64,000 bases of DNA from Aquimixticola soesokkakensis (GTDB lineage Bacteria > Pseudomonadota > Alphaproteobacteria > Rhodobacterales > Rhodobacteraceae). The translations under genes were made by a program, and so were the position numbers. Under the pieces are notes generated by a model. That model ran no database searches. It was not told the origin of the DNA and worked only from the letters and a program-made list of their open reading frames with translations. The stretch lies in contig NZ_FWFS01000002.1 of NCBI RefSeq assembly GCF_900172375.1, positions 1-64,000 of the forward strand, written 5' to 3'. Positions 402 to 32,374 of this stretch are shown here, one piece after another; the first letter of the stretch is position 1, and the number at the start of each line of letters is the position of its first letter.

Positions 402-1391
402 ATGACATTCACGAAATACATCGGTCTTGCAGGGATGATGGTGCTTGGCGCAAGTGCTGCCCATGCGGCTGACCCCGAAGTCACCATTCGCATCGCCGCA
501 GGGGCATCGTCCAACGGCAACGTCTGCAAGGGCTACCTTGATGTCTGGGGCGAAAAGGTCAAAGCCGCCTCTGACGGGCGGATCGACTACGAACTTTATT
601 GCGACGGCACGCTGGCCAAGATGGGCGATGCGGTCAACCGCGTTGAACAGGGCGTGGCCGATATGGCCTGGGACGTGCCCGCCGCCTATGGCGCACGCTT
701 TGCAGGCTTTAACGTGATCGGCGTTCCGGGCCTCTACCACGACCCCGAGGTGGCCGGCGCTGCCCTGTGGCAAACCTATGCCGAAGGTACGCTTGGCGGC
801 AGCGACGAGGTCAAGGTGATGTGGGTGCAGGTTGTGAACAACAACAGCTTCTTCATGGCCAATCCGATGGCGGATTACGCCAACTTCGACGGCGCCAAAA
901 TTGGCATGGGCAGCCAGATGCGGGCCAAAGTGATCGAAACCATGGGCGGTGTGCCTGTCGCGATCAAGGTGCCCGAATATTACCAATCCCTTTCCAAAGG
1001 CGCCATTGATGGCATCATGTCCACCGCAGGCGCGATCTTCGACTTCGGGATGGAAAGCCTGTTGAGCGAGGTTTACGAGGGCGAATTTGGCGGCGGCTTG
1101 ACCTTTGTGGTGATGAACCAGGATTTCTACACCAGCCTGCCCGACGACCTGCGCGAGATCATTGACGAAAATTCTGGCCTCGAGATGACGAAATGGGCCT
1201 CGGCCTATCTGCGCGACCGCGAGCACGACGAAATGAGCGCCCTGCCCAACGTCAAAATCATCCAGGCCAGCGACAGCGATATGGTCGCGTTCGAACCTGC
1301 CTTTGCCGCCGCGCGCGACGTCTACCTCGACTCCGATCCGGCGAATGCCGGCTATCTCGCCGCGCTTGAGACAGCCCTCGCGGCGCAGTGA
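402..1391 (+). CDS. TRAP transporter DctP-type solute-binding protein
   Basis: A 329-residue protein with a clear Sec signal peptide: basic start, hydrophobic core, and a cleavage site near residue 22 after SAAHA. The mature part has the DctP fold signature: a binding-lobe region around GMGSQMRAKV followed by the PEYYQSLSKGAIDGIMS motif typical of the family. It should act in the periplasm, capturing an organic acid and delivering it to a TRAP permease. The ATG at 402 follows a GGGAGG-type ribosome site at about 390-396; an in-frame start further upstream would lose the signal peptide. It is a paralog of the truncated gene at 1-229. The CMD-like gene follows 67 bp downstream on the same strand. 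The substrate is unknown; context suggests an aromatic or other organic acid. Confidence 0.88.
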   Translation: MTFTKYIGLAGMMVLGASAAHAADPEVTIRIAAGASSNGNVCKGYLDVWGEKVKAASDGRIDYELYCDGTLAKMGDAVNRVEQGVADMAWDVPAAYGARFAGFNVIGVPGLYHDPEVAGAALWQTYAEGTLGGSDEVKVMWVQVVNNNSFFMANPMADYANFDGAKIGMGSQMRAKVIETMGGVPVAIKVPEYYQSLSKGAIDGIMSTAGAIFDFGMESLLSEVYEGEFGGGLTFVVMNQDFYTSLPDDLREIIDENSGLEMTKWASAYLRDREHDEMSALPNVKIIQASDSDMVAFEPAFAAARDVYLDSDPANAGYLAALETALAAQ

Positions 1392-1458
1392 GAGATCGCC
1401 TAATCTCGGCGGGGCCGGTGGGAAACCGTCGGCCCCTTTGTCACGACAGGAGGCCGCC

Positions 1459-2022
1459 ATGCCGGACCGTTTCACGCTCGACACTCTGGCAGATCTGCCC
1501 CCCGAGGCCCGACCTTTGGCACAGCGTGTGCTCGAAGTGTCCTCGGACGGGATCGGCGGACCGTTCAACCTGTTGCTCAAGTCGCCGCAATCAGGTGCAA
1601 AGATCGTCGATCTTCTGGATCACTTCAACGGCGGGTTTTCCAGGATCGACAGCGACAGCCGTCGCCTTGCGGTCTTGATCCTGGCGCGCTCTGCGGGCGC
1701 GCGCTATGCGTGGTGGACCCACGAGCGGCGCGCAATTGCTGCGCAGCAATTTTCGCCCGACCAGATCGCCGCCCTGAACAATAAACAGCGCCCCCTCGGC
1801 CTGACACCGCGCCTGAATGCGGTCTTTGACTATGTCACGGCCCTGAACAGGGGCACGCCGACGCCCGCGGCCACCCTTGCAGCCTTGCAAAGCGAGATGT
1901 CTGAAGCCGAAATTGTGGATCTGATCCTCTTTTGCGGCCTCTACACGACCATTGCCCTGCTGCTAAACGAAGGGGATGTCGCCCTCCCCGAGGGCGCGCA
2001 CGACAGTCTTAAACGCGACTGA
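1459..2022 (+). CDS. carboxymuconolactone decarboxylase-like (AhpD-fold) protein
   Basis: A 187-residue protein with the all-helical CMD/AhpD fold. The central segment LAVLILARSAGARYAWWTHERRA matches the family core in pieces: a hydrophobic helix, then a Trp followed by a His (AWWTHE), then the downstream helix with QFSPDQIAAL. The CxxC redox pair of true AhpD is absent, so a peroxidase role is unlikely. Relatives often act on lactone or aromatic-degradation intermediates, or have no known function. The start at 1459 is preceded by ACAGGAGG at 1446-1453. It shares the strand of the TRAP binding protein 67 bp upstream. Its last 14 bases overlap the end of the convergent hydrolase gene (2009-2770). 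Confidence 0.75.
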   Translation: MPDRFTLDTLADLPPEARPLAQRVLEVSSDGIGGPFNLLLKSPQSGAKIVDLLDHFNGGFSRIDSDSRRLAVLILARSAGARYAWWTHERRAIAAQQFSPDQIAALNNKQRPLGLTPRLNAVFDYVTALNRGTPTPAATLAALQSEMSEAEIVDLILFCGLYTTIALLLNEGDVALPEGAHDSLKRD

Positions 2023-2770
2023 CGAGATCGGATAACCACGTTGAAAAGGCGTCAGGATCTTCGACGTGGGGCGCATGGGCGGCATGGGCGAACAGGTGTG
2101 TCTTGGCCTGCGGATAGCGTTGTTTCGCCTGTGCCAGCATCGCGGGGGTGAACAGGCGGTCGCGCGCGCCTGTCGCGATGCAAAGCGGGGCCATATCTGT
2201 CAGAGCCGCCGGATCAGCGGGGCAAAACTGCGCAGGCTCGCCCGCATTTCGACGCTGGTTTTCGGCCTCTTGCCGGCGCCAATGCTGCGCAGCATTTGTC
2301 GAGCGGAAAACATCCGAAAGCTCGCGCTCCTCGCATGTGCCCTGCGGGGAATCCTCTTGCGTCAGCGCAAACCAGTCGCGCGCGGGTTGCCCCAAGAAAG
2401 AGCACGCAAAGCCCAACCCCAGAACGCTTGACGGGCTCCGCCGCGCAAACTCCACAAGGCAGGCACCGCCCGCCGCCACACCGACAAACACGGCCCGAGC
2501 AATGTTCAGATGGGCCAATAGCGCGGATAAATCCGCCCCCTGACTTTCCGCATACGCCCCGCGCGTCGACTGCCCGTAGCCCCGACGATCCCAGATCAAA
2601 ACCGGACCGCCATAGCGTGACAGCACGGCCGCAAAGCCGGACATCGTGCCCGAATGCGGATGGGCCAGCACCAGAATCGGCCCCGCCCCCCGCCGCAGCC
2701 GATAGGACAGCTGCGCCCCGTCATCGCAGGAAAAGACGGCGGGGTCAGGCACCTTCGGGAACAAACGCAT
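2009..2770 (-). CDS. alpha/beta-hydrolase-fold protein with Ala in place of the nucleophile Ser
   Basis: A 253-residue alpha/beta-hydrolase. The strand-turn DRRGYGQS (61-68), the late acid Asp204 (GARDRLF) and a His-rich loop (His232 or His235) fit the fold. The nucleophile elbow, normally G-x-S-x-G, reads G97-V98-A99-A100-G101, so Ser is replaced by Ala99. It therefore cannot use the standard acyl-serine mechanism. It may bind a ligand, act as a decarboxylase or lyase, or use cofactor-free chemistry. The chosen ATG at 2770 lies inside the end of the upstream MBL-fold gene (26 bp overlap), implying translational coupling. Its 3' end overlaps the convergent CMD gene by 14 bp. The second hydrolase of this module (4428-5195) has the same substitution. 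Confidence 0.8.
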   Translation of the reverse strand: MRLFPKVPDPAVFSCDDGAQLSYRLRRGAGPILVLAHPHSGTMSGFAAVLSRYGGPVLIWDRRGYGQSTRGAYAESQGADLSALLAHLNIARAVFVGVAAGGACLVEFARRSPSSVLGLGFACSFLGQPARDWFALTQEDSPQGTCEERELSDVFRSTNAAQHWRRQEAENQRRNAGEPAQFCPADPAALTDMAPLCIATGARDRLFTPAMLAQAKQRYPQAKTHLFAHAAHAPHVEDPDAFSTWLSDLVSRV

Positions 2771-3626
2771 AGCCCTCTTGCGTGCGCGCAATTCGCCCGC
2801 AATGCGGCGCGCCGAAATGGCACGGCATGACCAAAGCGCCCGTTTGCGCCATCTCTGCCAGGAATGCGTGTCGCGTGTTGCGCGCCACATCCTGTTCGAC
2901 ATCAATCACCGTGTTGATGTCAGGGCACAGGATTTGCAGCGGCGAGTGGAAAATATCGGCGCAAAACACCCCTTTTTCGCCCTCGCTCTCGAGATCGACG
3001 CGCATCATTCCCGGCGTATGGCCAAAGGCATTGCGCGCGCTCAGACCGGGGGCAAATTCCAGGCCCTCGTCGTAAAATTCCACCCGCCCCGCCTCAACGA
3101 GCGGATTGATCGCATCCACAAAGGCTTCGGTTTCACCAATGCCCTGCGTCTCTAGAAATTTGCGGTGCCAATGCGCATAATCCTTGCGCGGCATCCAGTA
3201 GCGCGCATTGGGGAACATCGCGGCCCAGCCCGATCCATCCGCGGTGGTGTTCCAGCCCACATGATCGCCGTGCAAATGGGTGTTGATCACCTGTGTCACC
3301 TGATCGGGTGCCGCCCCCGCCGCCGCAAGCCAGCTTGGGACCAGCGTGTTCAGCCGGTCAAACCGCGCCAATCCGCGCGGCTTGCCATTGCCGACACCCG
3401 TGTCGATGACGATGACCTCCTTGCCCAGACGCACCACCCAGATCTGGATGCCGATCACCAGTTTGCCCACTTCGGGGCGGTAATGCGCCGGCGTCAGCTG
3501 TGGCGCGATTTCGGCAAATTTTGCAGGCGATAGCGCGGGATAGAGCATTTTGGGGTCATGCGTCGGGCCGATCATTTCGACAATGTTAAAGACATCGGCC
3601 GCGCCGATTTTGCGATGATACATCAT
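2745..3626 (-). CDS. MBL-fold metallo-hydrolase
   Basis: A 293-residue metallo-beta-lactamase-superfamily enzyme. The metal motif H117-L-H119-G-D121-H122 is intact, and further His residues follow in FGHTPGM and near the C-terminus in MPCHFGAPH. The family covers lactonases, thioesterases and other hydrolases, and the overall layout resembles lactonase-type members. No signal peptide is visible, so it should be cytoplasmic. A GGAGG sits 6 bases before the first of two adjacent ATG codons (3626). It is the first gene of a two-gene minus-strand operon with the 26-bp-overlapping alpha/beta-hydrolase. Opening a lactone intermediate in the module's pathway is plausible, but the substrate cannot be read from the sequence. 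Confidence 0.82.
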   Translation of the reverse strand: MMYHRKIGAADVFNIVEMIGPTHDPKMLYPALSPAKFAEIAPQLTPAHYRPEVGKLVIGIQIWVVRLGKEVIVIDTGVGNGKPRGLARFDRLNTLVPSWLAAAGAAPDQVTQVINTHLHGDHVGWNTTADGSGWAAMFPNARYWMPRKDYAHWHRKFLETQGIGETEAFVDAINPLVEAGRVEFYDEGLEFAPGLSARNAFGHTPGMMRVDLESEGEKGVFCADIFHSPLQILCPDINTVIDVEQDVARNTRHAFLAEMAQTGALVMPCHFGAPHCGRIARTQEGYAFVPEGA

Positions 3627-4427: not shown

Positions 4428-5195
4428 CTAGGCAAGCAAATCGGCGACCAGCTTTGGCGTTTGCAGCGCCATGAAATGCCCGCTGTCGATTTCGCAAAAT
4501 CTCGCGCCTCTCACGCGCTCTGCCACGGCTTTGACAAGCGCGGGTGTGCGCGCCACATCCTGCGTCCCTGCCACAAATCGCGCAGGACAGGTCAGACCGG
4601 AGAGGGCGGGCCCAAGGTCCATCTGCGCGAGCATGCGATAGGTCGCCGCCAGCGATGCCGGTGAGGTGCCCAGTTGCGTGCCACAGAAGATCTCGAACCC
4701 TTCCCCCCTCTGCGCGAACCGGGGTTCAGGCCATGCTTTGGGCAATGTGTCCTTCATCAGAAACGCACGCAAGCCGCCCTCCTCCAACATCTGCGCGAGG
4801 TTCAAAACACCTGCGCGCCGCTCGGGCGGCACGCCTGTTGCAGGCGCAAAGGCGGTAAGCGCCGCCACCTGCGGCCCCATGGCAGCCGCGGTGGCAATGG
4901 CCACGCCCCCGCCCACCGCGCAGCCCGCCAGATGCACAGGCCCAAGGCCCAGCAGCTTGATCAAACCGGTGACATCCCCTGTGTGATCGGACAAAGCGAC
5001 CGCTCCGGACGGCTTTTCAGACCGCCCAAAGCCACGCAGATCCAGCCGCAGAACGGCGCGCCCGGGCAGATGGCGCAGCACCAGATCCCAGCTTTCCAAC
5101 GCCCCGCCCATTTCGTGCAGCAAAACCAGCGGAACTCCCGCGCCATCTCGCCAGTCGAAATGCAGGCTAACCCCGTTAACTTGCGCGTAACTCAT
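4428..5195 (-). CDS. alpha/beta-hydrolase-fold protein, nucleophile replaced by Ala
   Basis: A 255-residue alpha/beta-hydrolase most like 3-oxoadipate enol-lactonase or C-C hydrolase relatives. It has LVLLHEMGG at the oxyanion loop, DLRGFGRSEKP, the acid Asp213 (GTQDVARTP) and the base His240 (DSGHFMALQTP). The nucleophile elbow reads G91-C92-A93-V94-G95 instead of G-x-S-x-G, so Ser is Ala93 while the Asp and His remain. It is the last gene of the HpaB operon, and its ATG overlaps the stop of the FAH gene as ATGA (5192-5195). The retained Asp-His pair suggests an active protein with different chemistry rather than decay, since the reading frame is intact. Confidence 0.82.
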   Translation of the reverse strand: MSYAQVNGVSLHFDWRDGAGVPLVLLHEMGGALESWDLVLRHLPGRAVLRLDLRGFGRSEKPSGAVALSDHTGDVTGLIKLLGLGPVHLAGCAVGGGVAIATAAAMGPQVAALTAFAPATGVPPERRAGVLNLAQMLEEGGLRAFLMKDTLPKAWPEPRFAQRGEGFEIFCGTQLGTSPASLAATYRMLAQMDLGPALSGLTCPARFVAGTQDVARTPALVKAVAERVRGARFCEIDSGHFMALQTPKLVADLLA

Positions 5196-6031
5196 TGCGC
5201 GATAACGCTGTTTTCCAACCGGCCGACGTTGTCGATCTCGACACTTACCACCTTGCCCGGCTCAAGCAGAACCATTGGACGGCGGGTAAAGCCCACCCCC
5301 CCCGGCGTGCCGGTGACAATCACATCCCCCGGCAGTAATTCGCAAAACTGCGAACAATAGGCGATGAGGGTCGGGATATCGAAAATCAGAAAGTCGAGCT
5401 TGGAGCGCTGCATGATTTCCCCGTCCAACAGGGTGCGCAATTCCAGCTCTTCCAGCGGGCCGGTTTCATCCAGCGTGACCATGTAGGGGCCAAAGGGGCC
5501 GGAGGTCGGGAAATTTTTACCCGGTCCCCATTGCTCGCCCTTCATCTGCCAGTCGCGCATCGACACATCGTTGAAACAGGCGACCCCTGCGACGTGATCC
5601 ATCGCGGTTTGCGCCGTCAGGTAGCGCCCGGGTTTGCCGATGATCACCGCCAGCTCGCCCTCGTAGTCGACTACATCGGAGTTGCGGGGTTTGACAATCT
5701 GCGCCCCGTGCCCGCAAAGCGAGGTCGCGAAGCGCATGAAAATCACGGGGTGTTCGGGATAGGCCTTGCGATGCTCGGGGCGGGTTTCGTCGCGGTGATG
5801 CTGATAGTTCAGGCCCGCGCAAAAAATCTGCGCCGGATCGGGGATGACGGGGGCAAATTGCACGGCATCCAGAGGAATCGCAGGGCGGCTGCGCAAGTCC
5901 TGCGCGATGGCCGCCAGATCCCCCGCGACCACCGATTTAAGGGTCAGCCCATGGGCCGCAAGGTGGATCGCATCGCCTTCGACAAGGCCGAACCGGAGGG
6001 CACCCTGATGGGTCACTGTGGCAAATTTCAT
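5192..6031 (-). CDS. fumarylacetoacetate hydrolase (FAH) family protein
   Basis: A 279-residue FAH-family enzyme. The metal-binding carboxylates are visible as E124 and E126 in DYEGELAVIIGK and D155 in FNDVSMRDWQ, and TGTPGGVG (240-247) is the family's C-terminal signature. Members cleave or hydrate 2-oxo-dicarboxylates such as fumarylpyruvate, acylpyruvates and 2-hydroxyhepta-2,4-dienedioate, using Mg2+ or Mn2+. The N-terminal 60 residues look like the usual FAH N-terminal domain. It overlaps the DUF3500 gene upstream and the alpha/beta-hydrolase downstream by 4 bp each (ATGA), so the three are translated as a coupled unit. In this operon it is the natural candidate for the C-C bond hydrolysis step after ring cleavage. 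Confidence 0.9.
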   Translation of the reverse strand: MKFATVTHQGALRFGLVEGDAIHLAAHGLTLKSVVAGDLAAIAQDLRSRPAIPLDAVQFAPVIPDPAQIFCAGLNYQHHRDETRPEHRKAYPEHPVIFMRFATSLCGHGAQIVKPRNSDVVDYEGELAVIIGKPGRYLTAQTAMDHVAGVACFNDVSMRDWQMKGEQWGPGKNFPTSGPFGPYMVTLDETGPLEELELRTLLDGEIMQRSKLDFLIFDIPTLIAYCSQFCELLPGDVIVTGTPGGVGFTRRPMVLLEPGKVVSVEIDNVGRLENSVIAQ

Positions 6032-7320
6032 TTTGTGTCTCGCAGTTTGGCGACCAGATCCATGCCGTAATCCCCGCCGTTAGGCGTGCGGGTGATCGTG
6101 TGGACATGGAAACGGGCCGGTTCTTTGTTGGTCAAAAAGACCGCTTGGTGATGATCTAGTTCGACCAGCACAACAGGCGAATAGAGGCGGATATAAAAGG
6201 GCGACCAATCATCTATGCCCCCCATCCACACCAGCCAGGTCTGATCCAGATGCGCTTCGATTTCCGCCCTGCGCGCGCGACCCGGTCCTTGCGGCAGGGC
6301 GGTGAAAAACGTCTCGAAAAGCGTCATCAGACGCGCCTTGTCGGCAGGGGTGAACTCCTGCGCACAGACCCCTTCTGCGGGGATGATCTGGTTGTCGCGA
6401 AATGCGCCGCCCAGATGCAGACTGTCGGCCCAGTGCCGCCGACCCGCGGGCACATCGCCGCTCAGGATCGAGGGCAGCACGATGGCGCGCGCCTGCAGAT
6501 CGGGGGCCAGCCCGCGGATCAGGTCCAGCGCGGCCTCTTCCGTCTCGATGAAGGCGTTGATTCCTGCCTTGGGCCCTGTGTCGACAACGGTCGGCTCGGC
6601 CGCCAGCAGGGTCGGTGAGAGCACATAGGTGTCACCGACCACACGACAGGACAGGCAAATATGGTGACCGTAAAATTGCCACCCCCAAGCGTCATCCTCG
6701 GGGGTGCCGAACAGGCCCACCGTGTAGCAAAATTCGTTCAGGTATTTTTCCCGCCCGATCAATTCGCCCGAAAAGCGGTTGATTTCCAACAACGCCTGTA
6801 GCGTGGCAAAGCCTTCTTGGGACAGGGAGCTGCGCAAAAGCGCCATCACCGCGTCGCGTTCTGCCGTGTTCATTTCCTCAAGGCCCAGACCATCGCGCGG
6901 CCAGGCCATGGGCATGTTGTGCCAGCGCCGCCACGCGGGCGCATCGCTTGGCAAACACACCGCAGCCGCGATCTCTGGGCGCAGCACCGCTTGCAGCGCG
7001 CGCATGGCCGTTGTCATCTCGGCAATCGGGGCGTCATTGCCCGCAAGCGTGCGCGTTCCCGCCGCCTCCTGCCCGTCGAAACGGACCCCCACAAAAGGCG
7101 CCTCCATGGCTTTCGTCATCAGCGCGAATTGCTCTTGGAAGAAGGCCCCTTCCATCACTTCGGCCGTTCGTTGATGGCGGGTCGAATTCAGCGCAGGGGG
7201 GGCTTTTTGCGCGGGCACAAAGGGGCGAAAGTCGCGCGGATGCGCCATCTGGCCAAAGGCCGCTTTCAGCTTGGCATCCGTTAGCGGGGCCAGCGTTTTG
7301 GACGGGGCTGCATGGCTCAT
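6028..7320 (-). CDS. DUF3500 family protein
   Basis: A 430-residue member of the DUF3500 family, which has no established function as far as I know. The family core appears as W212-G-W-Q-F-Y-G-H-H220, followed by a stretch ending AAEPTVVDTGP. Near the C-terminus are ELDHHQAVF and FHVHTITRTPNGGDYGMDL, so conserved His residues cluster in two places as if to bind metal. No signal peptide or membrane segment is seen. It sits third in the five-gene operon, with 4-bp overlaps to the bicupin before it and the FAH protein after it. A divergent paralog occurs at 25095-26459 in the second catabolic module. Position in an enzyme operon suggests a catalytic role on an aromatic-derived substrate. Confidence 0.85.
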   Translation of the reverse strand: MSHAAPSKTLAPLTDAKLKAAFGQMAHPRDFRPFVPAQKAPPALNSTRHQRTAEVMEGAFFQEQFALMTKAMEAPFVGVRFDGQEAAGTRTLAGNDAPIAEMTTAMRALQAVLRPEIAAAVCLPSDAPAWRRWHNMPMAWPRDGLGLEEMNTAERDAVMALLRSSLSQEGFATLQALLEINRFSGELIGREKYLNEFCYTVGLFGTPEDDAWGWQFYGHHICLSCRVVGDTYVLSPTLLAAEPTVVDTGPKAGINAFIETEEAALDLIRGLAPDLQARAIVLPSILSGDVPAGRRHWADSLHLGGAFRDNQIIPAEGVCAQEFTPADKARLMTLFETFFTALPQGPGRARRAEIEAHLDQTWLVWMGGIDDWSPFYIRLYSPVVLVELDHHQAVFLTNKEPARFHVHTITRTPNGGDYGMDLVAKLRDTK

Positions 7321-8117
7321 GTCAGGGTGCCTTCGGGTTCGTTGACGAAAGGCGGAGCAGTCGAATAGTCGATCTGTACCTTGTAGTCGAATTGAGTGCC
7401 CGATGCAGGTTCGGGGATCAGGATTGCCAGATGGTATTCCGGCGTGGTGCCGAGATTGAGGTTGGTATGCACACAGCCCTTGGGCAGCATCACCAGATCC
7501 CCTGTGCGCGCCACGGCGCGTTCATGGCCGACCTGAATCGTCAATTCACCGCCATAAACATAGTAAAACTGATCGAAATCGTGAAAATGCAACGCCGGAC
7601 CGCCCGCGCCCACGGGCACTTGGGCTGCATAGATGCGCGCATGTTCTGACCCCGTTTCGCGGCGCGCCAGATGTTGCGAGGCAAACAGCCGCCCCATCGT
7701 GTAGCCATCGGGGGTGATCGGGGTGATCAAAGCGGCGGCATCGGGCACTTCGGGCACCTCCCCCTCCCAATATTCGATCAGCCGGTCTTGGGGCGGGCGG
7801 GGCACCATCAGCTCCAGATGTTTTTCGTAGGCGTCGGTTTCATTCCAGTTGCAATGCGGCGTGCCGGCGGGGAAATGGACCATCGCCATCGGGCCGACCT
7901 TGAACACATCGCGCCCGATCTGCACCGTCGCCTGCCCCTCGAAAATCACATAGAACTGGTCCACGGGATGGGTGTGCAGGCGCGGCCCCCTATGGCCCGG
8001 GGGCACGCGGCTGATCAGGAAATTGCAGCTGTCCACGCCCCCCTCCGGCCCGTTGAGCCAGAGGGATTTGAAGGTCTCGGGGAACTGCTCCTCGGGGTTG
8101 GGGATGATATTGCGCAT
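7317..8117 (-). CDS. bicupin protein, candidate ring-cleavage dioxygenase
   Basis: A 266-residue protein made of two cupin domains. The first has H48-x-H50-x3-Q54 and His88; the second has H177-x-H179-x3-Q183 and His217. Both sites carry the same 2-His/Gln/His pattern, where many cupins have Glu in third position, so both could hold a metal. Bicupins include gentisate 1,2-dioxygenase (longer, about 350 residues), quercetinase and oxalate-processing enzymes. Here it is one base downstream of an HpaB-type hydroxylase and overlaps DUF3500 by 4 bp. The context favours oxygenative cleavage of the hydroxylated ring, though an isomerase or regulatory role cannot be excluded. It is cytoplasmic by absence of a signal peptide. 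Confidence 0.85.
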   Translation of the reverse strand: MRNIIPNPEEQFPETFKSLWLNGPEGGVDSCNFLISRVPPGHRGPRLHTHPVDQFYVIFEGQATVQIGRDVFKVGPMAMVHFPAGTPHCNWNETDAYEKHLELMVPRPPQDRLIEYWEGEVPEVPDAAALITPITPDGYTMGRLFASQHLARRETGSEHARIYAAQVPVGAGGPALHFHDFDQFYYVYGGELTIQVGHERAVARTGDLVMLPKGCVHTNLNLGTTPEYHLAILIPEPASGTQFDYKVQIDYSTAPPFVNEPEGTLT

Positions 8118-8118
8118 G

Positions 8119-9669
8119 TTAGTGGCCCGCGTTGAACAGGTCGGGCGCTTTCCAGCCGTTCAGATCGTATTCGGCCATGCAGGTATCGACGAGGCCAAGC
8201 ATCTGTTCTGCCGTGCCATTCTGGAAACTGCGCACATATTGATCGACGCGCACCTGTTCTTGCGACCCTGCATAGTTGGTTTCATACAGCTCGTGACGCG
8301 AGGCAAATTCCGACCCGAACGCATCCCACGTCAGCTTGAGGATCTTGGAGCGGTCCACCGATGACATCCCGTTGGAGCCGCGCGCATATTGATCGAGCAG
8401 CGGGCTCATGTCGGGGTTCAGGTGATCCTTGGCCGAGGACGGCAGATAGATTAGCCCCGAGGCCACATGACGCAACACCGACTGGCGGATTTTGGAATAC
8501 ATATCGGCGGCGATCACGCGATAGGCATGGCCATGCACGCGGTTGGGCATCTGGTATTGCCCCTGCCAGTCGTGGCTGTCGCGCGCCATGGCTTCCATGA
8601 TGGCCCAAAGCGTGTGGCGATAGGCAATTGCCTCGCCCACGGCCGCCTGAACGCCGCGAAAATCCTTGGTGCCGCCGACTTCGACCGCTTTCATGAAGGC
8701 CCCGCAGAGGAAATCGAGCTTGACCGCCAAGCGCACCCCTGCCTGCAACAATCCGCGCGACGCCTGTCCGGGCACAGCCATGAAGGTATTGGCCTTTTGC
8801 GCATCATACATCAGCACGTTTTCCCAGGGCACCAGCACGCGGTCGAGCACAAGGATGGCATCGTTTTCATCCAGCCGCGATGACAAAGGCGCATCAAAGG
8901 CGCTGGCGGTCTGGTTCGCCGTGCCCTCATAGGAGCGGCGGCAGTACATCTTGACGCCGGGGCTGTTCACGTCGAGCACAAAGACCGGCGCGAATTTCTT
9001 GTCCGTGACGGGAATGAAATGATGCGCAATGAGGATTTGTTGCGCCAGCGCCGATCCGGTCGCGACCACTTTGGCCCCCGACACGATGATCCCCGCATCG
9101 GTTTCTTCCTCGACGCGGATCATGATGTCTTGGGCTTTTTCGGGCGACGAGCGGTCGATGGGCGGGTTCACGATCGCATGGCCGATGAAGGACACATTTT
9201 CGCGGATGTGTTTGGCCACACCACGCGCATTATCGGCGTATTCCCCGAAATACTCCGCCTCGACCTCAAGGCTGGGCACGAAAGCCGCCCCCACGAAATC
9301 GGGCGAACGCCCCAGCCAGCCATAGCCAACCCGCGCCCAAAGCGCATAGGCGTCTTTCTGTTGCAGGCTCTCTTCAAGGCTGCGCGGTGCCTGAAAGGCC
9401 GAATGGGTCCAGCCCGTGCCATCGCGCAACGGCGCGCGCATGGTTTTGGCGTTTTTCTCGTCGTGCAACGCCTCGTAAAGCCGCGCGACCATGCGGGCCG
9501 AATTGCGAAACGCCGGATGGGTGGTCACATCGCGCACGCGCTCGCCATCGACCCAGACTTCGCGGCCATCATCCTTGATCGAGTCCAGATATTCTGCCCC
9601 CGTCTGGGGACGTTTTCCATCCTTGCTGGTTTTGGCACGGGCAGGCGCTGTCAAAGTTGTCGCACTCAT
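8119..9669 (-). CDS. HpaB/PvcC-family FADH2-dependent monooxygenase
   Basis: A 516-residue protein of the 4-hydroxyphenylacetate 3-hydroxylase large-component family. Recognisable blocks are TGAEYLDSIKDDGREVWVDGE at the N-terminus in the usual place, IGHAIVNPPIDR near residue 165, VVATGSALAQQ, and DAILVLDRVLVPWENV, which corresponds to the family's FDNVFVPWE block. Such enzymes hydroxylate phenolic rings with O2 and reduced flavin supplied by a separate reductase. No HpaC-type reductase is seen in the window. It is the first gene of the operon running to 4428, with GAGAGGACC just before the ATG. The start is shielded by a 219-bp divergent promoter region containing an inverted repeat. The specific substrate is unknown. 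Confidence 0.9.
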   Translation of the reverse strand: MSATTLTAPARAKTSKDGKRPQTGAEYLDSIKDDGREVWVDGERVRDVTTHPAFRNSARMVARLYEALHDEKNAKTMRAPLRDGTGWTHSAFQAPRSLEESLQQKDAYALWARVGYGWLGRSPDFVGAAFVPSLEVEAEYFGEYADNARGVAKHIRENVSFIGHAIVNPPIDRSSPEKAQDIMIRVEEETDAGIIVSGAKVVATGSALAQQILIAHHFIPVTDKKFAPVFVLDVNSPGVKMYCRRSYEGTANQTASAFDAPLSSRLDENDAILVLDRVLVPWENVLMYDAQKANTFMAVPGQASRGLLQAGVRLAVKLDFLCGAFMKAVEVGGTKDFRGVQAAVGEAIAYRHTLWAIMEAMARDSHDWQGQYQMPNRVHGHAYRVIAADMYSKIRQSVLRHVASGLIYLPSSAKDHLNPDMSPLLDQYARGSNGMSSVDRSKILKLTWDAFGSEFASRHELYETNYAGSQEQVRVDQYVRSFQNGTAEQMLGLVDTCMAEYDLNGWKAPDLFNAGH

Positions 9670-9741
9670 TTGGTGGTCCTCTCAATCTGGCTCAAAGGCG
9701 TTGCCCCGACTGTTCCAGAACCCGCAGAGGCGGTCTTGAAC

Positions 9742-9819
9742 GAGAGTCGCCAGCTTTTGGGCCTGCGCGAAGGCGCGCAGCATGCCCTGCGGACCCGCGC
9801 TCTGAAATTGGCGACTCTC
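9742..9819. promoter_or_regulatory. 11-bp perfect inverted repeat in the divergent hpaB-like/ThDP enzyme promoter region
   Basis: GAGAGTCGCCA at 9742-9752 is repeated as its exact reverse complement TGGCGACTCTC at 9809-9819. The copies lie 67 bp apart start to start, in the 219-bp gap between divergently transcribed genes. The arms are too far apart for a hairpin terminator and sit where both promoters must lie, so paired operator sites for one regulator are likely. The regulator is not known; the IclR and LysR proteins of the window are candidates. Confidence 0.45.
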
Positions 9820-9888
9820 AGGCAATCCCCCGCTGCGCTTTGCGTGGCATGTCTTTGGAAAATGACCCTATGACCGGAGCTTGCCCCC

Positions 9889-22613: not shown

Positions 22614-23552
22614 TCAGGCCCAGCCGATCCAACGGTTCATGTTGGCGCCAAGGATCGCGGCAAGGTCGGCCTCGGAGGTAAAATCAAGCGCGCTCCAGAA
22701 ATCGAGACCCTCAGAATAGGGGCCCTTCAAAAGGGTGATATCGGAGGCGTAAATCAGCCGCTCGGGCCCGAAACTGTCATAGGCGTGACGCACCAGCGCC
22801 TGCATGTCGGGAAAGGGAAAGGCGGCTGCGCTATCGCGCGGGATGGCCCCGGTTTTGAGCATCACATTGGGCAAAGGCGCAAGTTTTTGAGCAACAATGC
22901 GGAATTTGGGCAGGGCTTGGTCCTCCTCGACCCCGCGCCCGAGGCCAAAGGCATCCACGCATAGTTTAAGGTCGGGATAGGCGCGGGCGGCCTGCGCCAG
23001 CACATCAAGACTGTCACCGGCATGTACCGAAACCGGAATTTGCTTTTGCGCAAGCACGGGCCAGAGCCAGTCGGCCCCGCCTTCGGCCAGCCATGCCGTG
23101 CCGCTGTCGCTGGACAGGAACATCCGCATGCCCGCCATTCCGGCCTGATCCATCCATGTCTCGACGGTGGCACGCTGATCTTCGCCGGGCATGGAAATCA
23201 GGCCCAAAACTGCCAAGCGGTCCGGGTATTTTTGAGCCGATTCAAGGGCATAATCATTGCCGCGCGCCGCCCAGCTTGGGGGGACGATCACCGCGCGATC
23301 GACAGCATTCGCGTCCAGCGTTTCCAGAAGTTCTTCGGCAGACAACGGGTCCTGACGGCCGCTGGCACTGGGGCTTTTGGTGCCGCCTGCTTGCCAGATG
23401 TGAACCTGACCGTCGGTGATCTGGCGTGGCAGGGGGGCCGCCTGCGCGCGACCGACGCCCAGCCCGACAGAAACACCGCCGCCAAGCCCGGCAAGCGCCG
23501 TCGCCGCACCGCCATGGGCCAAAACCGTCCGTCTGTTTAGGGTAAATGTCAT
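22614..23552 (-). CDS. Tat-exported amidohydrolase-family (COG2159/COG3618-like) hydrolase
   Basis: A 312-residue amidohydrolase_2-type TIM-barrel protein. It carries a twin-arginine signal (L-N-R7-R8-T-V-L, Gly/Ala-rich core, AQA cleavage near residue 38). The barrel begins ITDGQVHIW, where the usual HxH is reduced to a single His. Later blocks are VIVPPSW, ALESAQKYPDRLAVLGLI, SVHAGDSL and LIYASDITLL with a catalytic-position Asp. Family members are lactonases, decarboxylases or hydratases of aromatic and sugar-acid intermediates; periplasmic ones are unusual. GAGGAG precedes the chosen ATG. It is divergent from the TTT binding protein (23811), sharing a 258-bp promoter region, which suggests it may convert a compound before uptake. 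Confidence 0.78.
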   Translation of the reverse strand: MTFTLNRRTVLAHGGAATALAGLGGGVSVGLGVGRAQAAPLPRQITDGQVHIWQAGGTKSPSASGRQDPLSAEELLETLDANAVDRAVIVPPSWAARGNDYALESAQKYPDRLAVLGLISMPGEDQRATVETWMDQAGMAGMRMFLSSDSGTAWLAEGGADWLWPVLAQKQIPVSVHAGDSLDVLAQAARAYPDLKLCVDAFGLGRGVEEDQALPKFRIVAQKLAPLPNVMLKTGAIPRDSAAAFPFPDMQALVRHAYDSFGPERLIYASDITLLKGPYSEGLDFWSALDFTSEADLAAILGANMNRWIGWA

Positions 23553-23810
23553 CTCAAAGGCTCCTCGCGAAAGCACGCAAGGACAGCCCCCGCGCCGCGC
23601 CACTGTGACGCCAAACTCCCCAAACTTCCCCATCGAAACCCTTGCTTTGGGAATTGAAAAATCGCACCGCCGCAGCCCTTTTCTTATTGGCAGGGTGCGC
23701 AATCCGATTTGTTCCCCGGGGGGCAGGATGCCAAGGTTCAGGCAGCCGGCTGTTGCGTGGCCTTTGCAGGGCGCATCCACAGGCGGGCACTATATTCTTG
23801 GGAGGAATAC

Positions 23811-24860
23811 ATGACAATTTTCAACACAGGTAAATGCGCGGTCTTCGGCCTTGGCGCGCTGCTGGCAAGCACCGCCGTTGTGCAGGCCCAAACCGCCGAA
23901 GAGTTTTACACGGGCAAAACCGTGACGATGGTTGTCGCCGCTGCGCCCGGTGGCTTTGCCGATACGATCGCACGCACCTTTGTGACGAAATTTGCCCAAC
24001 ATTTTCCCGGAAAACCCGAATTTATCGTGGTGAACAAACCCGGCGCGGGCGGGATTGTGGCCGCTGCCCAGCTTCAAAACACCGAAGCCAAAGACGGCAC
24101 GACCATCGGATTTTTGTTGGGCAACGTGTTGACGACGCCGCTGGTGACCGGCCAGACCGCCCAATTCGACCCACATAACGTGCAGTGGATCGGCTCGATC
24201 CGCAACGGCGACTACCCCTATGCGCTCTATGCCAAAACCGATAGCGATATCCAAAGCGCCCAGGATCTGTTCGACAAGACGCTGGTCGTCGGCTCGACCT
24301 CCTTTACCAATTACAACCGCGTCTTTCCCGCGCTGATGAACGAATATATCGGCACGCAAATGGACATCGTGGCGGGCTACCAAGGGTCGGGCGAGGTCTA
24401 TCTGGCGCTGGAACGCGATGAGGTCAGCGGCTGGATGGAAGGCTCGCATGCCATCCTCAACAAGACCAACAAAGCCGGTCAGATGATCGACGAGGGCACG
24501 CTCAAGCCGATCATGTTGATGGCCAAGGAAACCGACGAACGCTGGCCGGACCTGCCGATCCTCGAGGATTACATCACCGATGAAAACCAACGGGCGGTGG
24601 CCAACTTCTTGATGACCTCCTCGGCCTCGGGTCGCCCCATCGCCGTGCCCGCCGAAGTGCCCGCCGAGCGCGTCGAGGCGATCCGCGCGGCCTTTGACGA
24701 GACCTTCGCAGACCCCGAATTCGTGCCCTACATGCAGGAAATGCTGAGCACGCCGGTCGTGCTGTCGCTGTCGGATGACGATCTGAACGGGATGATCAAC
24801 GATTTCTACGCGGCCTCCGAGGAAACCCTCGAAAAAGTCCGCGGCTTCATGGTCGACTAA
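23811..24860 (+). CDS. tripartite tricarboxylate transporter substrate-binding protein (TctC)
   Basis: A 349-residue periplasmic binding protein with a Sec signal (cleavage after VVQAQ, about residue 26). The mature start EEFYTGKTVTMVVAAAPGGFADTIAR contains the family's P-G-G-x-x-D carboxylate-binding loop in order. NKPGAGGIVAA follows, and the next region has GSTSFTNYNRV. TctC proteins bind carboxylates for a TctA/TctB permease, which here is the fused gene at 26587-28635. GGGAGG at 23800-23805 precedes the ATG. An inverted repeat (24865-24909) follows directly and may end the transcript. The ligand is not predictable; the surrounding genes suggest an aromatic or polycarboxylic acid. Confidence 0.88.
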   Translation: MTIFNTGKCAVFGLGALLASTAVVQAQTAEEFYTGKTVTMVVAAAPGGFADTIARTFVTKFAQHFPGKPEFIVVNKPGAGGIVAAAQLQNTEAKDGTTIGFLLGNVLTTPLVTGQTAQFDPHNVQWIGSIRNGDYPYALYAKTDSDIQSAQDLFDKTLVVGSTSFTNYNRVFPALMNEYIGTQMDIVAGYQGSGEVYLALERDEVSGWMEGSHAILNKTNKAGQMIDEGTLKPIMLMAKETDERWPDLPILEDYITDENQRAVANFLMTSSASGRPIAVPAEVPAERVEAIRAAFDETFADPEFVPYMQEMLSTPVVLSLSDDDLNGMINDFYAASEETLEKVRGFMVD

Positions 24861-24864
24861 GCCG

Positions 24865-24909
24865 TCAAAGCGGCCCTGCCCTTTGGCCCTTTGTGGCGGG
24901 CCGCTTTGA
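24865..24909 (+). terminator. stem-loop after tctC
   Basis: TCAAAGCGGCCC at 24865-24876 is matched exactly by GGGCCGCTTTGA at 24898-24909, a perfect 12-bp stem with a 21-nt loop. It begins 5 bp after the tctC stop. Only short T runs follow, so termination may be partial. The rest of the gap to 25094 shows nothing else I can name. Confidence 0.55.
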
Positions 24910-25094
24910 TCCCGTGCTGATACGTTGCGCACAGACCCCCGATCGGCCGGCATCTTGCGCGGCCTTTCGTCGTTGTGCCAGCCGGTCTGACGACCCCGCC
25001 CGCCCCGGCCCAACAGGCCAATCAATGACCCCTAAAACGGGCTGACCCGCCGCACAAAACCAACCAGACTGCGCACAAGCGACAGGAGTTCTGC

Positions 25095-26459
25095 ATGTCA
25101 GATCACAAGACCCCAACCACCTTCAAGGATTTCATCCCGCCCATGGGCACCCACCGCCTCTATGGCATGGGACCGCAGGATTTTCTGGACACGATGCCCG
25201 AACGCCGCTGGACGCGCCGCGCAGCAGAAATTGCCGAGATCACACCGGAAAATTTCAAGGGGATCACAACCGACGGCACGGTCATGCGCGACGTTTTTTC
25301 CATCCGCTCCGAAGGCGCACCGACCCTGAGCGTGGTGGAGGCCGCGGGCAAAATGCTTGGGCTTTTGAACGATGCACAGCGCGCCAAAGTGGTGCAACCC
25401 GTGACCTCGATGCAAAAGAACCGCTGGCAGAACGGCATCCCCGACTACGAAAAGGAGGGTATCCGCCTTGACGAGGTCCGCCCCCCCGTGCGCGACGCCG
25501 TGATGGCCATTTTGCGCGCTGCCATGGGCGCTGAGGGGTACGCGCGCCTGCGCGATGTGATGCGCCTGAACGGATATCTGGGCGAACTGGTCGGGGCGGA
25601 AAAATTGCTGGGGGAATGGTGTTATCGCATCCACTTCTGGGGCACGCCCTCGACGAGCGAACCCTGGGGCTGGCAATTTGCCGGTCACCATCTGGCGATG
25701 ACCTGTTTCATGCTGGGCGATCAAATGGTGCACACGCCGATCTTTTTCGGGGTCGAACCCAATGAGGCCTCCGAGGGGCAATTCGCCGGGGCAAGCGTTT
25801 TCAAGGACGAGGAAGCCGCAGGGCTGCGCTTTGCCCAGGGGCTGGATGCTGACCAGCGGCGCAAGGCAGTGATCTATGACAGCATCCTTCCCGGTGATCT
25901 CCCGCCGGGGCGTCATCATCCGCTCAACGGTTTGAACCTTGGCAACGCCTATTGCGACAATGTGGTGGTGCCCTACGAAGGGATCACAGGGGCCGATCTG
26001 CGCCCGGATCAAAAGCAGGGCTTGCTGGATCTGGCCCGCAGCTACCTGCGCACCTTGCCCCAAGGCCCCCTGTCGGCAAAGATGGAAGATCTCGAACGTC
26101 ATTGGGCCGAAACGCGGTTCTGCTGGGCGGGGGGATTGGAAGAGGACAGCGTGTTTTACTATCGCATCCAAAGCCCTGTCGTGATGATCGAATTTGACCA
26201 CCACCAAGGCGTGGTTCTGAACAACGAAGCACCCGAAAGGTTTCATATTCACACGCTGGTGCGCACCCCCAACGGCAATGACTACGGGGCGGATTTGCTG
26301 CGCCAGCACTATGAAACCTCGGCCCATCACAACCCGCAGGTGGCGCAGGCACAAGATCACGCCCATTCCCACAGCCCTGCCAAAGAGCACAGCCACCAAA
26401 ACACCCATGCCCAGGATCACCACCACGGTGACGGGCAGCTGCATCACCATCATAAATAG
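25095..26459 (+). CDS. DUF3500 family protein with His-rich C-terminal tail
   Basis: A 454-residue DUF3500 protein, paralogous to the one at 6028-7320. The shared core is W191-G-W-Q-F-A-G-H-H199, with RLNGYLGELVGAEKLLGEW before it and VMIEFDHHQGV plus FHIHTLVRTPNGNDYGADLL near the end. From about residue 411 the sequence changes to a His-rich tail with 15 His in the last 44 residues, ending LHHHHK, which the first paralog lacks. The tail resembles the metal-storage or metal-delivery tails of nickel and zinc proteins. No signal peptide is seen. A GACAGGAG site precedes the ATG. The gene lies between tctC and a strong terminator (26480-26515). Confidence 0.85.
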   Translation: MSDHKTPTTFKDFIPPMGTHRLYGMGPQDFLDTMPERRWTRRAAEIAEITPENFKGITTDGTVMRDVFSIRSEGAPTLSVVEAAGKMLGLLNDAQRAKVVQPVTSMQKNRWQNGIPDYEKEGIRLDEVRPPVRDAVMAILRAAMGAEGYARLRDVMRLNGYLGELVGAEKLLGEWCYRIHFWGTPSTSEPWGWQFAGHHLAMTCFMLGDQMVHTPIFFGVEPNEASEGQFAGASVFKDEEAAGLRFAQGLDADQRRKAVIYDSILPGDLPPGRHHPLNGLNLGNAYCDNVVVPYEGITGADLRPDQKQGLLDLARSYLRTLPQGPLSAKMEDLERHWAETRFCWAGGLEEDSVFYYRIQSPVVMIEFDHHQGVVLNNEAPERFHIHTLVRTPNGNDYGADLLRQHYETSAHHNPQVAQAQDHAHSHSPAKEHSHQNTHAQDHHHGDGQLHHHHK

Positions 26460-26479
26460 ACCCTGACCTGCCACGAAAC

Positions 26480-26515
26480 GGGCCGCGCTTTGGACAAAGC
26501 GCGGCCCTCTTTTTT
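26480..26515 (+). terminator. rho-independent terminator after the DUF3500 gene
   Basis: GGGCCGCGCTTT at 26480-26491 and AAAGCGCGGCCC at 26496-26507 form a perfect 12-bp stem with a GGAC loop, followed by TCTTTTTT. It lies 20 bp after the DUF3500 stop codon. Confidence 0.92.
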
Positions 26516-26538
26516 GGCTCACGCCTGACACAAGCGCA

Positions 26539-26566
26539 AAAGGCCGCCCCAAGTGGAGCGGCCTTT
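26539..26566 (-). terminator. rho-independent terminator of the tctAB fusion gene
   Basis: AAAGGCCGC at 26539-26547 pairs with GCGGCCTTT at 26558-26566. Read on the minus strand, the stem is followed by TTTTGCGC, and it lies 20 bp beyond the stop of the transporter gene. On the plus strand a shorter CTTTCGTTT tail is present, so it may also act as a back-up for the opposite direction. Confidence 0.75.
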
Positions 26567-26586
26567 CGTTTCACATTTTAGGGGGC

Positions 26587-28635
26587 TTACATCGACGGGA
26601 TGTGCTGTGCGAACCACGCAAACCTCTCGCCGATCAGCGTATTGGGCCAGGGCACATGGATCACCTGATCAAAGACGACATAGATCGCCACCGTCACGCA
26701 GGCCGCGTAGACCAGCGTCAGTTTCCACGGCTCGTTGCCCTCCAGCCGCATATAGGCGACGATCAGAACCGGCACCGTGGGGATAAGGCCGATGGTCGCC
26801 ATCAGGATCAGAAAGGCGAGGAACCAGCCGAAAAAGACGCCCGCGCGCAGCAGCACGATCTTGCGATGATGCCCGTCGTCACTGGCGAGGTCCATATGGA
26901 TGCCGCGGTGCGACGTGTCGGCCTCGGCCCCTGATCCGCGCCCCGAAAAGAGCAAAAAGATCAGGCTCAAACCACCCGCGACCAGCATCGTCAGCGCCAC
27001 AGCCGTCGGACCGACCCGCGCGCCAAAGCTCCAGCTTTGCGCCTCGACCAACATGTAGCCGCCAATCGCAAGGAAGAAGACATACAAAAGGTCTTCGGCT
27101 CTGACGGAAAACCTGCCGCGCGGTACAAAGGCCCGCGCGCCGATCGCGCGAAACTCGGTGTAGACGGGGCGCAACAGCACCATAGTGGCCATGCCGAGCA
27201 ACAGGATCACCACAGGGCGCGACAGCCATTCCCCGCCAAAGCGCTGGATGGAAATCGACATGTAGCGTTCGATCAGCGCGCCCAACACGAGGCCGAGGAT
27301 CAGCGGCGGGCGCGGCCATTTCAGCCGTTTCATCGCCCAGCCCACAACACCAAAGAACATCAGCGCATAGAGGTCGCCCCAAGAGCCCGAGCCCTGAAAC
27401 GCGCCGACAAACACCACCGCGATGATCGCGGGCAACACCAGCGTGTAGCGCAGGGTGGAAATCTTGGCGAATTGTCCCGACAGCAGGAAACACAGGCCCG
27501 CGCCGAAAATATTGGCCAGCGCGATGGACCAGACCAGCGTGTAGGTCACATCAAGGTTGGTGGTCAGCATTTCGGGTCCCGGCACAAAACCATGCACCAT
27601 CAGCGCACCCAGCAGGATCGCTTGGGACGCCGATCCGGGCACTCCGAAGGCAATCGTGGGCACAAGGCTGCCCCCCTCTTTGGCATTATTGGCCGATTCC
27701 GGTGCGATCACGCCGCGCACATCACCGGTGGAAAAGCTTTCCTTGGCCCCTTTTTCCGAACGGATGGCATGGCCGTAGGCGATCCAGTCGGTGACCGATC
27801 CGGTGATGCCCGGAATGATCCCCAAAAGCGCGCCGATAGAGGAACAACGGATAACGAGAAACCAGTTCTCAAGCACATCACGCGCGCCGCGCAGCATCCC
27901 TTTGGTGATGGAATGCTCCATTTTTTCCGCCAGGGCCGAGCGTTTGATCGACAGGTCGCACAGTTCGGGCAGCGCGAACATGCCAAGCAGAACCGGCAGC
28001 ATCGGCACACCGTCCCAAAGGTACAAAATATTGCCCGCCCAGCGGATCGTGCCCGTCTGGCTGTCAGTGCCGATCATGCCGACAAGGATGCCAAAACAGG
28101 CAGCGACGACCCCGCGCAGGGGCGCATTTCCCGACAAGGCCGACACCATCGCAATGCCAAAAACGGTCATCGCCAGCAGTTCGGGCGTTCCGATGGCCAG
28201 CACGAAAGGCCGGATGACCGGGATCGACAGCGCCAGAACAACCGCTCCGAAAATGCCGCCAAACAGGGATGCGGTAAACCCCGCACTCAGCGCCCGCCCC
28301 GCCTCGCCTTTGCGCGTCATCGGAAACCCGTCGAGCACCGTCGCCTGTGAGGCTGCCGTTCCGGGCACCCCGAATAAAACGGCCGGAATTGTATCCGAGG
28401 TTGATGTCACCGAATGCATGCCAAGAAGCATCGCAAAGGCCGCGAAAGGGTCCATCGTATAGGTAAACGGGACCAGCAACGCAAAGCCCGTCATCCCGCC
28501 GATCCCCGGCAAAAGCCCGATAGACAGGCCCACGACGACGCCCACGACAAGAAACCCGATCCTTTCGAGCGACATCAATGTGCCCATCGCCTGACCCGCG
28601 GCATCCATCATATAGGCCAGCTCACTGATCGCCAT
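26587..28635 (-). CDS. tripartite tricarboxylate transporter permease, TctA-TctB fusion
   Basis: A 682-residue integral membrane protein. Residues 1 to about 500 are a TctA large permease, with the signature GLLPGIGGMTGFALLVPFT, SDTIPAVLFGVPG, and a second PGITGSVTDWIAYG repeat typical of its two halves. Residues about 507-682 form a separate four-helix module (EDLLYVFFLAIGGYML, GPTAVALTMLVAGGL, GWFLAFLILMATIGLIPT, VYAACVTVAIYVVF) that matches a TctB small subunit. The two are encoded as one chain with no separate tctB in the window. It would transport a carboxylate with the TctC protein at 23811. The ATG at 28635 follows GGGAGCGAGG. It is transcribed toward the DUF3500 gene, ending at its own terminator. 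Confidence 0.87.
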   Translation of the reverse strand: MAISELAYMMDAAGQAMGTLMSLERIGFLVVGVVVGLSIGLLPGIGGMTGFALLVPFTYTMDPFAAFAMLLGMHSVTSTSDTIPAVLFGVPGTAASQATVLDGFPMTRKGEAGRALSAGFTASLFGGIFGAVVLALSIPVIRPFVLAIGTPELLAMTVFGIAMVSALSGNAPLRGVVAACFGILVGMIGTDSQTGTIRWAGNILYLWDGVPMLPVLLGMFALPELCDLSIKRSALAEKMEHSITKGMLRGARDVLENWFLVIRCSSIGALLGIIPGITGSVTDWIAYGHAIRSEKGAKESFSTGDVRGVIAPESANNAKEGGSLVPTIAFGVPGSASQAILLGALMVHGFVPGPEMLTTNLDVTYTLVWSIALANIFGAGLCFLLSGQFAKISTLRYTLVLPAIIAVVFVGAFQGSGSWGDLYALMFFGVVGWAMKRLKWPRPPLILGLVLGALIERYMSISIQRFGGEWLSRPVVILLLGMATMVLLRPVYTEFRAIGARAFVPRGRFSVRAEDLLYVFFLAIGGYMLVEAQSWSFGARVGPTAVALTMLVAGGLSLIFLLFSGRGSGAEADTSHRGIHMDLASDDGHHRKIVLLRAGVFFGWFLAFLILMATIGLIPTVPVLIVAYMRLEGNEPWKLTLVYAACVTVAIYVVFDQVIHVPWPNTLIGERFAWFAQHIPSM

Positions 28636-30840: not shown

Positions 30841-30845
30841 AAGCC

Positions 30846-30885
30846 CCCTCTTTCCCGCTCATAAATTCGCGGGCGGGAAAGAGGG
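30846..30885 (+). terminator. perfect 13-bp stem-loop after the Pht5-like gene
   Basis: CCCTCTTTCCCGC at 30846-30858 and GCGGGAAAGAGGG at 30873-30885 are exact inverted repeats around a 14-nt loop, starting 5 bp after the stop codon. The plus strand is followed by AAATCTATCC and not by a T-run, so a rho-dependent 3' end or mRNA-stabilising hairpin is as likely as termination. The following 200 bp up to the LysR gene are AT-rich and should contain its promoter. Confidence 0.5.
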
Positions 30886-31098
30886 AAATCTATCCTGTTA
30901 ATCTAAATATTTCAGTTATTTAAACGATATTCTGCATCACAATGCATGTGCCGCGTGCAAAAATATGATGGCTTTGCGGCGATATGTTATTGGCGCTTTG
31001 GGGCGAGATTTGTAAGTTCGTCCTCTCATTGAGGCTTTGAAAACGAAGCCATCGGGGGCGGTGTTTTGGGGAACATCGCGGTTTGGGAGGACCAAAAT

Positions 31099-32361: not shown

Positions 32362-32374
32362 AACGCGCCCGCAA

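Follow-up and report, generated by a model that had tools for sequence, protein, structure and literature searches.

A conserved alphaproteobacterial gene cluster combining an HpaB-type monooxygenase with a DUF3500 protein: a candidate route for bacterial aromatic ring opening

The first 64,000 nucleotides of contig NZ_FWFS01000002.1 of Aquimixticola soesokkakensis (Rhodobacteraceae), hereafter the window, carry near their left end a minus-strand operon encoding, in this order, an HpaB-type monooxygenase, a bicupin, a DUF3500 protein, an FAH-superfamily enzyme and an alpha/beta-hydrolase. On balance we favour, with somewhat better than even confidence, the reading that these genes belong to a co-regulated cluster, complete in itself, for the catabolism of a phenolic carboxylate, in which the HpaB-type enzyme would make a polyhydroxybenzene and the DUF3500 protein would open its ring. 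This reading starts from gene identities, cluster conservation, a shared operator, the clade of the DUF3500 protein, its conserved putative ligands and the loss of a nucleophile from the hydrolases; the chemical steps are all inferred.

The five genes occupy positions 4428-9669, with a 1-bp gap between the HpaB and bicupin genes (8118) and 4-bp overlaps at the other three junctions, exactly as described in an earlier note made from the bare sequence, and Pfam agrees with the five family identities proposed there (HpaB_N plus HpaB, two Cupin_2 stretches, DUF3500, FAA_hydrolase and Abhydrolase_6). None of the five proteins reached an NCBIfam equivalog cut-off. Relatives of the DUF3500 protein at 63-67% identity were found in three other alphaproteobacteria, namely the metagenome-assembled genome NORP194 (locus L014), Rhizobium sp. 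CF080 (L015) and genome G097, from the same family as the window (L016), and the neighbourhood comparison suggested in the note revealed the same five genes in identical order in all three, so that this order is not due to chance. The operon delimited by the note is therefore real, but the conserved unit is larger. The three loci also carry the divergent thiamine-diphosphate (TPP) enzyme and the metallo-beta-lactamase-fold (MBL) hydrolase, a second alpha/beta-hydrolase (ABH2), a GST-like protein and a carboxymuconolactone-decarboxylase-like (CMD-like) protein are each present in three clusters of the four; all four have TRAP transporter components alongside. The DctQ and DctM genes adjoin the Rhizobium cluster; since base 1 of the window is the contig end, the DctQM partners of its TRAP protein would lie off the contig. 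CMD-like proteins as a group were seen in all four loci, and beside the NORP194 cluster there are three more carboxymuconolactone-decarboxylase-family genes (L014, 15472-19327) in addition to the CMD-like ortholog.

Of 199 genomes sampled from the family, only one besides the window's own gave a DUF3500 match above 60% identity, and those sampled from the order, class and phylum gave none; the cluster is rare among sampled genomes. Genome contigs scanned with the DUF3500 protein alone returned two loci only. Its roughly ten co-regulated genes most likely import and degrade a phenolic acid. Co-regulation of the operon with the TPP gene, and possibly with the transporter, is supported by a 17-mer inverted pair between the HpaB and TPP enzyme genes, which was found in the divergent region of all four clusters. 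Of the window's two copies, the right one is letter-identical to a copy in the matching intergenic region of NORP194 and Rhizobium, and the G097 pair has diverged. At zero mismatches the 17-mer is unique in the window's whole genome, where up to three mismatches yielded five sites, two of them this pair, against two for a reversed control pattern. Weaker copies precede the AraC gene in Rhizobium (two mismatches) and the TRAP gene in NORP194 and the window (four mismatches each, the window copy perhaps arising by chance). The pair is operator-like and could be the site of a regulator, and AraC-type regulator genes flank the NORP194 and Rhizobium clusters.

The operon DUF3500 protein matches PF12006 with 285.6 bits (cut-off 27.2, E 6.8e-85); we take IPR021889 to denote the same family. 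According to the earlier note DUF3500 had no known role, a statement overtaken by two papers of 2025-2026 that place it as the ring opener of the fungal 1,2,3,5-tetrahydroxybenzene pathway: the Aspergillus nidulans protein AN10530 is proposed to turn 1,2,3,5-tetrahydroxybenzene into 5-hydroxydienelactone (PMC12388069), and the pathway is seemingly restricted to fungi (PMC13094099). For the bacterial family we built a tree of 45 DUF3500 proteins with flanking sequence, and labelled as aromatic those having, no more than 4 kb away, a gene for FAH, HpaI aldolase, HpaB, FAD-monooxygenase, Rieske oxygenase, bicupin or amidohydrolase. All aromatic-labelled proteins lay on one side of a single branch (17 of 17, against 0 of 28 outside it; support 100/99), and none of 500 label shuffles was as clustered as the real labels. 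Independently of these labels, PGAP-annotated plasmids place clade members from Thioclava, Paraburkholderia, Rhodococcus and Streptomyces in aromatic clusters, and records outside the clade adjoin methyltransferase, hypothetical, HupE/UreJ and unrelated genes.

Residues W133, W212, H219, H220, Y376, E387, H405, H407 and R411 are kept in at least 85% of 43 diverse DUF3500 proteins, and Amc20, the only solved DUF3500 relative (PDB 9x86), shares the GHH, E and HxH motifs; a literature search for Amc20 returned unrelated papers only. Given this conservation and the shared motifs, the DUF3500 protein is a probable metalloenzyme with a putative site formed by His219, His220, Glu387, His405 and His407.

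Some DUF3500 genes outside the aromatic clade stand in other contexts. In loci L033, L091, L092 and L093 the neighbouring gene encodes a conserved hypothetical protein some 180 aa long, with a HupE/UreJ-like membrane protein coming next in L092, and on a plasmid of Streptomyces sp. 3211 (L094) one lies near genes for a P450, an acyl-CoA dehydrogenase, a pyridoxal-dependent decarboxylase and a cupin, a cluster that looks biosynthetic and is possibly a parallel to Amc20. A TGA codon within the DUF3500 genes of G880, G710 and G803 was considered as a selenoprotein signal and discarded, since in the only case inspected, G880, the codon is upstream of where the gene probably starts.

The distribution of ring-cleavage genes also bears on which enzyme opens the ring. 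No classical ring-cleavage relative turned up in the whole window when one extradiol LigB (E. coli MhpB), two VOC and two intradiol sequences served as seeds; these were single-sequence seeds of limited reach that included none of the homogentisate type, and they found such relatives only in Thioclava-type loci, L018, L029 and the G097 locus. Across the 17 aromatic-clade loci DUF3500 is constant and the bicupin occurs in only six. In L052 and L053 the DUF3500 gene lies between those for an FAD-monooxygenase and a distant HpaB (29%), and neither FAH nor bicupin was found there. A plasmid of Bosea sp. F3-2 (L068, 4927-11896) carries a bicupin relative together with an MhpA-like hydroxylase, FAH, a VOC protein with two glyoxalase domains and TctC. 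The VOC protein, of extradiol type, occurs there instead of DUF3500, and this may be a related pathway in which the two fill the same slot.

The remaining enzymes suggest how the cluster might prepare the ring and process its products. Domain scores place the monooxygenase in the HpaB superfamily (HpaB_N 267.4 bits, HpaB 174.9 bits) but below the HpaB equivalog TIGR02310 (560.7 bits, cut-off 885.2), and its PDB relatives are 4oo2, the best match, 6b1b and 6qyh. It retains the Arg of GRxPD and the His of GHAIVNPP; the Tyr of the GRTPDY motif of E. coli HpaB, which has a catalytic role, is replaced by Phe in each of the four orthologs, and there are differences in the substrate-loop region too. 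No flavin reductase gene lies in the operon, and seven PF01613 loci are found elsewhere in the genome. The FAH protein (FAA_hydrolase, 219 bits) has an intact DYEGELAV metal motif and its nearest PDB relatives are HpcE/HpaG and acylpyruvate-type enzymes, but it fails every pathway-specific model, including fumarylacetoacetase TIGR01266 (23.7 bits against 375.3) and the HpaG C-terminal model (149 against 276.4). The note had also pointed to the GST-like neighbour as an isomerase candidate; with 22.6 bits against a cut-off of 171.05 for maleylacetoacetate isomerase (MaiA, TIGR01262) this role is ruled out by score, and the gene is absent from one of the four clusters.

As the note had observed, the last hydrolase of the operon (ABH1) lacks its nucleophile. 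Its elbow reads GCAVGG in the window, and the G-x-S-x-G elbow is replaced by GCAVGG or GGAVGG in all ABH1 orthologs and by GVAAGG or GIAAGG in all orthologs of ABH2, which the note had missed. Both proteins keep Asp and His, and all orthologs examined have Ala where the nucleophilic Ser would be; its conservation in three ABH1 orthologs rules out both a sequencing error and a decayed gene. Judging from these residues, ABH1 and ABH2 are probably non-hydrolytic general-base enzymes, such as tautomerases, decarboxylases or lyases. ABH1 scores 99.6 bits against PcaD TIGR02427 (cut-off 255.85) and its best PDB match is 2xua, a 3-oxoadipate enol-lactonase, and the best match of the MBL protein is a reconstructed lactonase/dihydrocoumarin hydrolase. 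Together with the CMD-like proteins of the four loci, these matches give a lactone/enol-lactone theme that fits the fungal lactone product, and the lactonase- and PcaD/PcaC-like enzymes point to a lower route that would be lactone- or beta-ketoadipate-like.

Table 1. Genes and repeats of the cluster, and the second DUF3500 gene, in window coordinates.
Feature	Position	Strand	Basis or occurrence
TRAP-type substrate-binding protein	402..1391	+	Translation; relatives in NORP194 and G097
CMD-like protein	1453..2022	+	Weak CMD match; ortholog above cut-off; 3/4 clusters
Second alpha/beta-hydrolase, ABH2, Ala for Ser (GVAAGG)	2009..2809	-	3/4 clusters
MBL-fold lactonase-like hydrolase, HxHxDH intact	2745..3626	-	4/4 clusters
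GST-like protein, not MaiA by score	3794..4402	+	3/4 clusters
PcaD-like alpha/beta-hydrolase, ABH1, Ala for Ser	4428..5195	-	Score, ortholog alignment, PDB match
FAH-superfamily hydrolase/isomerase, 279 aa	5192..6031	-	FAA_hydrolase
DUF3500 protein, 430 aa, proposed ring-opening enzyme	6028..7320	-	PF12006, conservation, tree, context
Bicupin, 266 aa	7317..8117	-	Cupin_2 x2, ortholog alignment
HpaB-type two-component flavin monooxygenase, 516 aa	8119..9669	-	HpaB_N/HpaB
Operator-like inverted repeat, left half, TTGAACGAGAGTCGCCA	9736..9752	+	Intergenic HpaB/TPP comparison
Operator-like inverted repeat, right half, 17-mer TTGCCTGAGAGTCGCCA	9809..9825	-	Identical copy in NORP194 and Rhizobium
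Divergent TPP enzyme, acetolactate-synthase-like, PRK06112	9889..11595	+	4/4 clusters
Second DUF3500 protein, 38% identical, same aromatic clade	25095..26459	+	Separate TctABC/amidohydrolase/HpaI-aldolase cluster

The window contains a second DUF3500 gene, also missed by the note. Around it (22614-38588) are genes for TctC, TctA/TctB, three amidohydrolases, an HpaI-type aldolase, two NMT1/THI5-like proteins and another TPP enzyme, two of the amidohydrolases showing weak likeness to 4-sulfomuconolactone hydrolase. The organism may have a further DUF3500 pathway here.

In the pathway that we propose for the main cluster, the TRAP transporter would take up a phenolic acid, which the HpaB-type FADH2 monooxygenase, with a reductase encoded elsewhere, would hydroxylate ortho to the existing phenol to give a polyhydroxybenzene. 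DUF3500, in place of a classical dioxygenase, would then open this ring, as proposed for the fungal protein on 1,2,3,5-tetrahydroxybenzene. The MBL lactonase, the CMD-like protein, the bicupin and the two Ser-less PcaD-like proteins would process lactone, enol and acid intermediates, after which the FAH enzyme might isomerise, decarboxylate or hydrolyse a ketoacid and the TPP enzyme act on the 2-oxoacid product. Since HpaB-type enzymes hydroxylate ortho to a phenol, formation of tetrahydroxybenzene from a resorcinol- or phloroglucinol-type precursor is an attractive guess, though one of low probability. A wider claim, to which we give slightly less than even credence, is that this would be a bacterial central pathway in which DUF3500 opens an HpaB-made polyhydroxybenzene and the lower route uses two alpha/beta-hydrolase-fold enzymes free of the serine nucleophile, DUF3500 ring opening then being an overlooked and widespread trait of alpha- and betaproteobacteria and actinobacteria.

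Several points weigh against ring opening by DUF3500. The fungal assignment is worded only as "proposed" or "putative" in PMC12388069, and activity of a bacterial DUF3500 protein was not found in the literature searched. DUF3500 proteins outside the aromatic clade keep the same putative metal residues without an aromatic context, so these residues alone are neither a mark nor a proof of ring cleavage. The AlphaFold model of DUF3500 from four sequences was unusable (mean confidence, pLDDT, of 43), for which reason no fold search was made with it, and the context hidden Markov models behind the tree labels drew some of their seeds from clade loci, a bias in favour of the clade. Moreover, an extradiol HpaD is found in Thioclava-type loci and a hydroxyquinol 1,2-dioxygenase in that of Paraburkholderia, and in G097 alone an intradiol dioxygenase-like gene (L016, 4181-4912) adjoins the TPP gene, so that another enzyme could open the ring in those loci. 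The G097 gene product keeps apparent Tyr/His iron ligands and may be another enzyme for ring cleavage or have been added later; as a member of the conserved set it was rejected, being missing from the three other clusters as read and having no close homolog in the window's genome, where only partial matches of 26-47% were found.

The ring-cleaving dioxygenase could instead be the bicupin, by analogy with the gentisate, salicylate and 1-hydroxy-2-naphthoate dioxygenases and quercetinase, with DUF3500 acting later in isomerisation, hydration or decarboxylation. Both cupin halves keep HxH...Q...H (H48/H50/Q54/H88 and H177/H179/Q183/H217), in which HxH...H would suit a 3-His iron site, a classical ring-cleavage gene was not found in the cluster, and the weak Foldseek matches of the bicupin include salicylate 1,2-dioxygenase and quercetin dioxygenase. 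The model searched (pLDDT 58) matches bicupins in general, however, and is too weak for assigning chemistry; its best folds are of the oxalate decarboxylase, BacB and YlbA types. The patchy occurrence of the bicupin in the clade, set against the constancy of DUF3500, and the Bosea relative that coexists with an extradiol-type VOC protein (one of three plasmid relatives, the other two adjoining DUF3500) make this assignment unlikely in our view. We regard it as distinctly improbable that DUF3500 plays an accessory part in a classical gentisate/homogentisate- or homoprotocatechuate-type route, with ring opening left to a dioxygenase encoded elsewhere on the chromosome: FAH, GST and HpaB components are present, two intradiol-family genes lie elsewhere in the window's genome, and in Thioclava relatives DUF3500 is accompanied by FAH-HpaH-HpaI and an HpaD, but the GST and FAH proteins miss the relevant equivalog cut-offs and a ring-cleavage gene common to the four clusters was not found. 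It seems very unlikely that the cluster serves to produce or alter a secondary metabolite or signal instead of degrading aromatic carbon. This idea could draw on 4oo2, which we take to be SgcC of enediyne biosynthesis, as the best PDB match of HpaB, on "Amc20" being the only DUF3500 structure and on the Streptomyces DUF3500 gene near a P450 and a pyridoxal-dependent decarboxylase; the TRAP, FAH, MBL, PcaD/PcaC-like and TPP proteins are catabolic, though, and the conserved set holds neither synthase nor carrier protein.

Ring hydroxylation followed by opening, as the earlier note had suggested, thus remains the best reading of the cluster, while the parallel that it drew with the gentisate/homogentisate route is weak, because GST and FAH fail the pathway models and our searches found no known ring-cleavage enzyme in the window. 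That route shares with the cluster an FAH-fold hydrolase, a cupin and a GST-like neighbour, but the 266-aa bicupin was not matched to gentisate dioxygenase, homogentisate dioxygenase was not found in the cluster, and the lactonase-type enzymes have no place there. The 4-hydroxyphenylacetate (homoprotocatechuate) pathway, with HpaB, HpaG, HpaH and HpaI, resembles the cluster in its HpaB-family hydroxylase and FAH-superfamily enzyme; the cluster differs in lacking HpaC, HpaD and HpaE, in the sub-threshold HpaB and FAH (HpaG) scores, and in the Tyr-to-Phe change and substrate loop of HpaB. PcaD-like ABH1 and ABH2 and the CMD-like proteins recall PcaD and PcaC of the beta-ketoadipate pathway, but the PcaD-like proteins of the cluster are devoid of the catalytic Ser and the conserved set is devoid of a protocatechuate or catechol dioxygenase.

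The note knew of no described pathway with this gene set, and our literature search for the set likewise gave no match, so that no described bacterial one was found. If the proposed reading is true, the cluster would supply a new ring-opening enzyme family for bacterial degradation of lignin, tannin or phlorotannin, a function for many DUF3500 genes that now lack annotation, and two alpha/beta-hydrolases with a natural Ser-to-Ala change, whose mechanism must be a different one. DUF3500 is not counted among the classical ring-cleavage dioxygenases, and its link with aromatic ring opening has so far been fungal only.

A further likeness is to the fungal 1,2,3,5-tetrahydroxybenzene pathway (the gallate route, with AN10530), which shares DUF3500 as proposed ring opener. 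The fungal cluster reportedly consists of a monooxygenase, an FAH-like protein, DUF3500 and a short protein, and DUF3500, a monooxygenase and FAH, the combination said to define it, occur in one cluster in the window, NORP194, Rhizobium and G097. Ring opening by DUF3500 is thus already known as a fungal proposal, a bacterial counterpart having been reported as not known in 2026. What appears to be new here is a bacterial cluster that, as predicted from its genes, would differ from the fungal route in its hydroxylase, which is of the HpaB type, and in its lower pathway, with a bicupin, the MBL hydrolase, two Ser-less alpha/beta-hydrolases, the TPP enzyme and the TRAP transporter.

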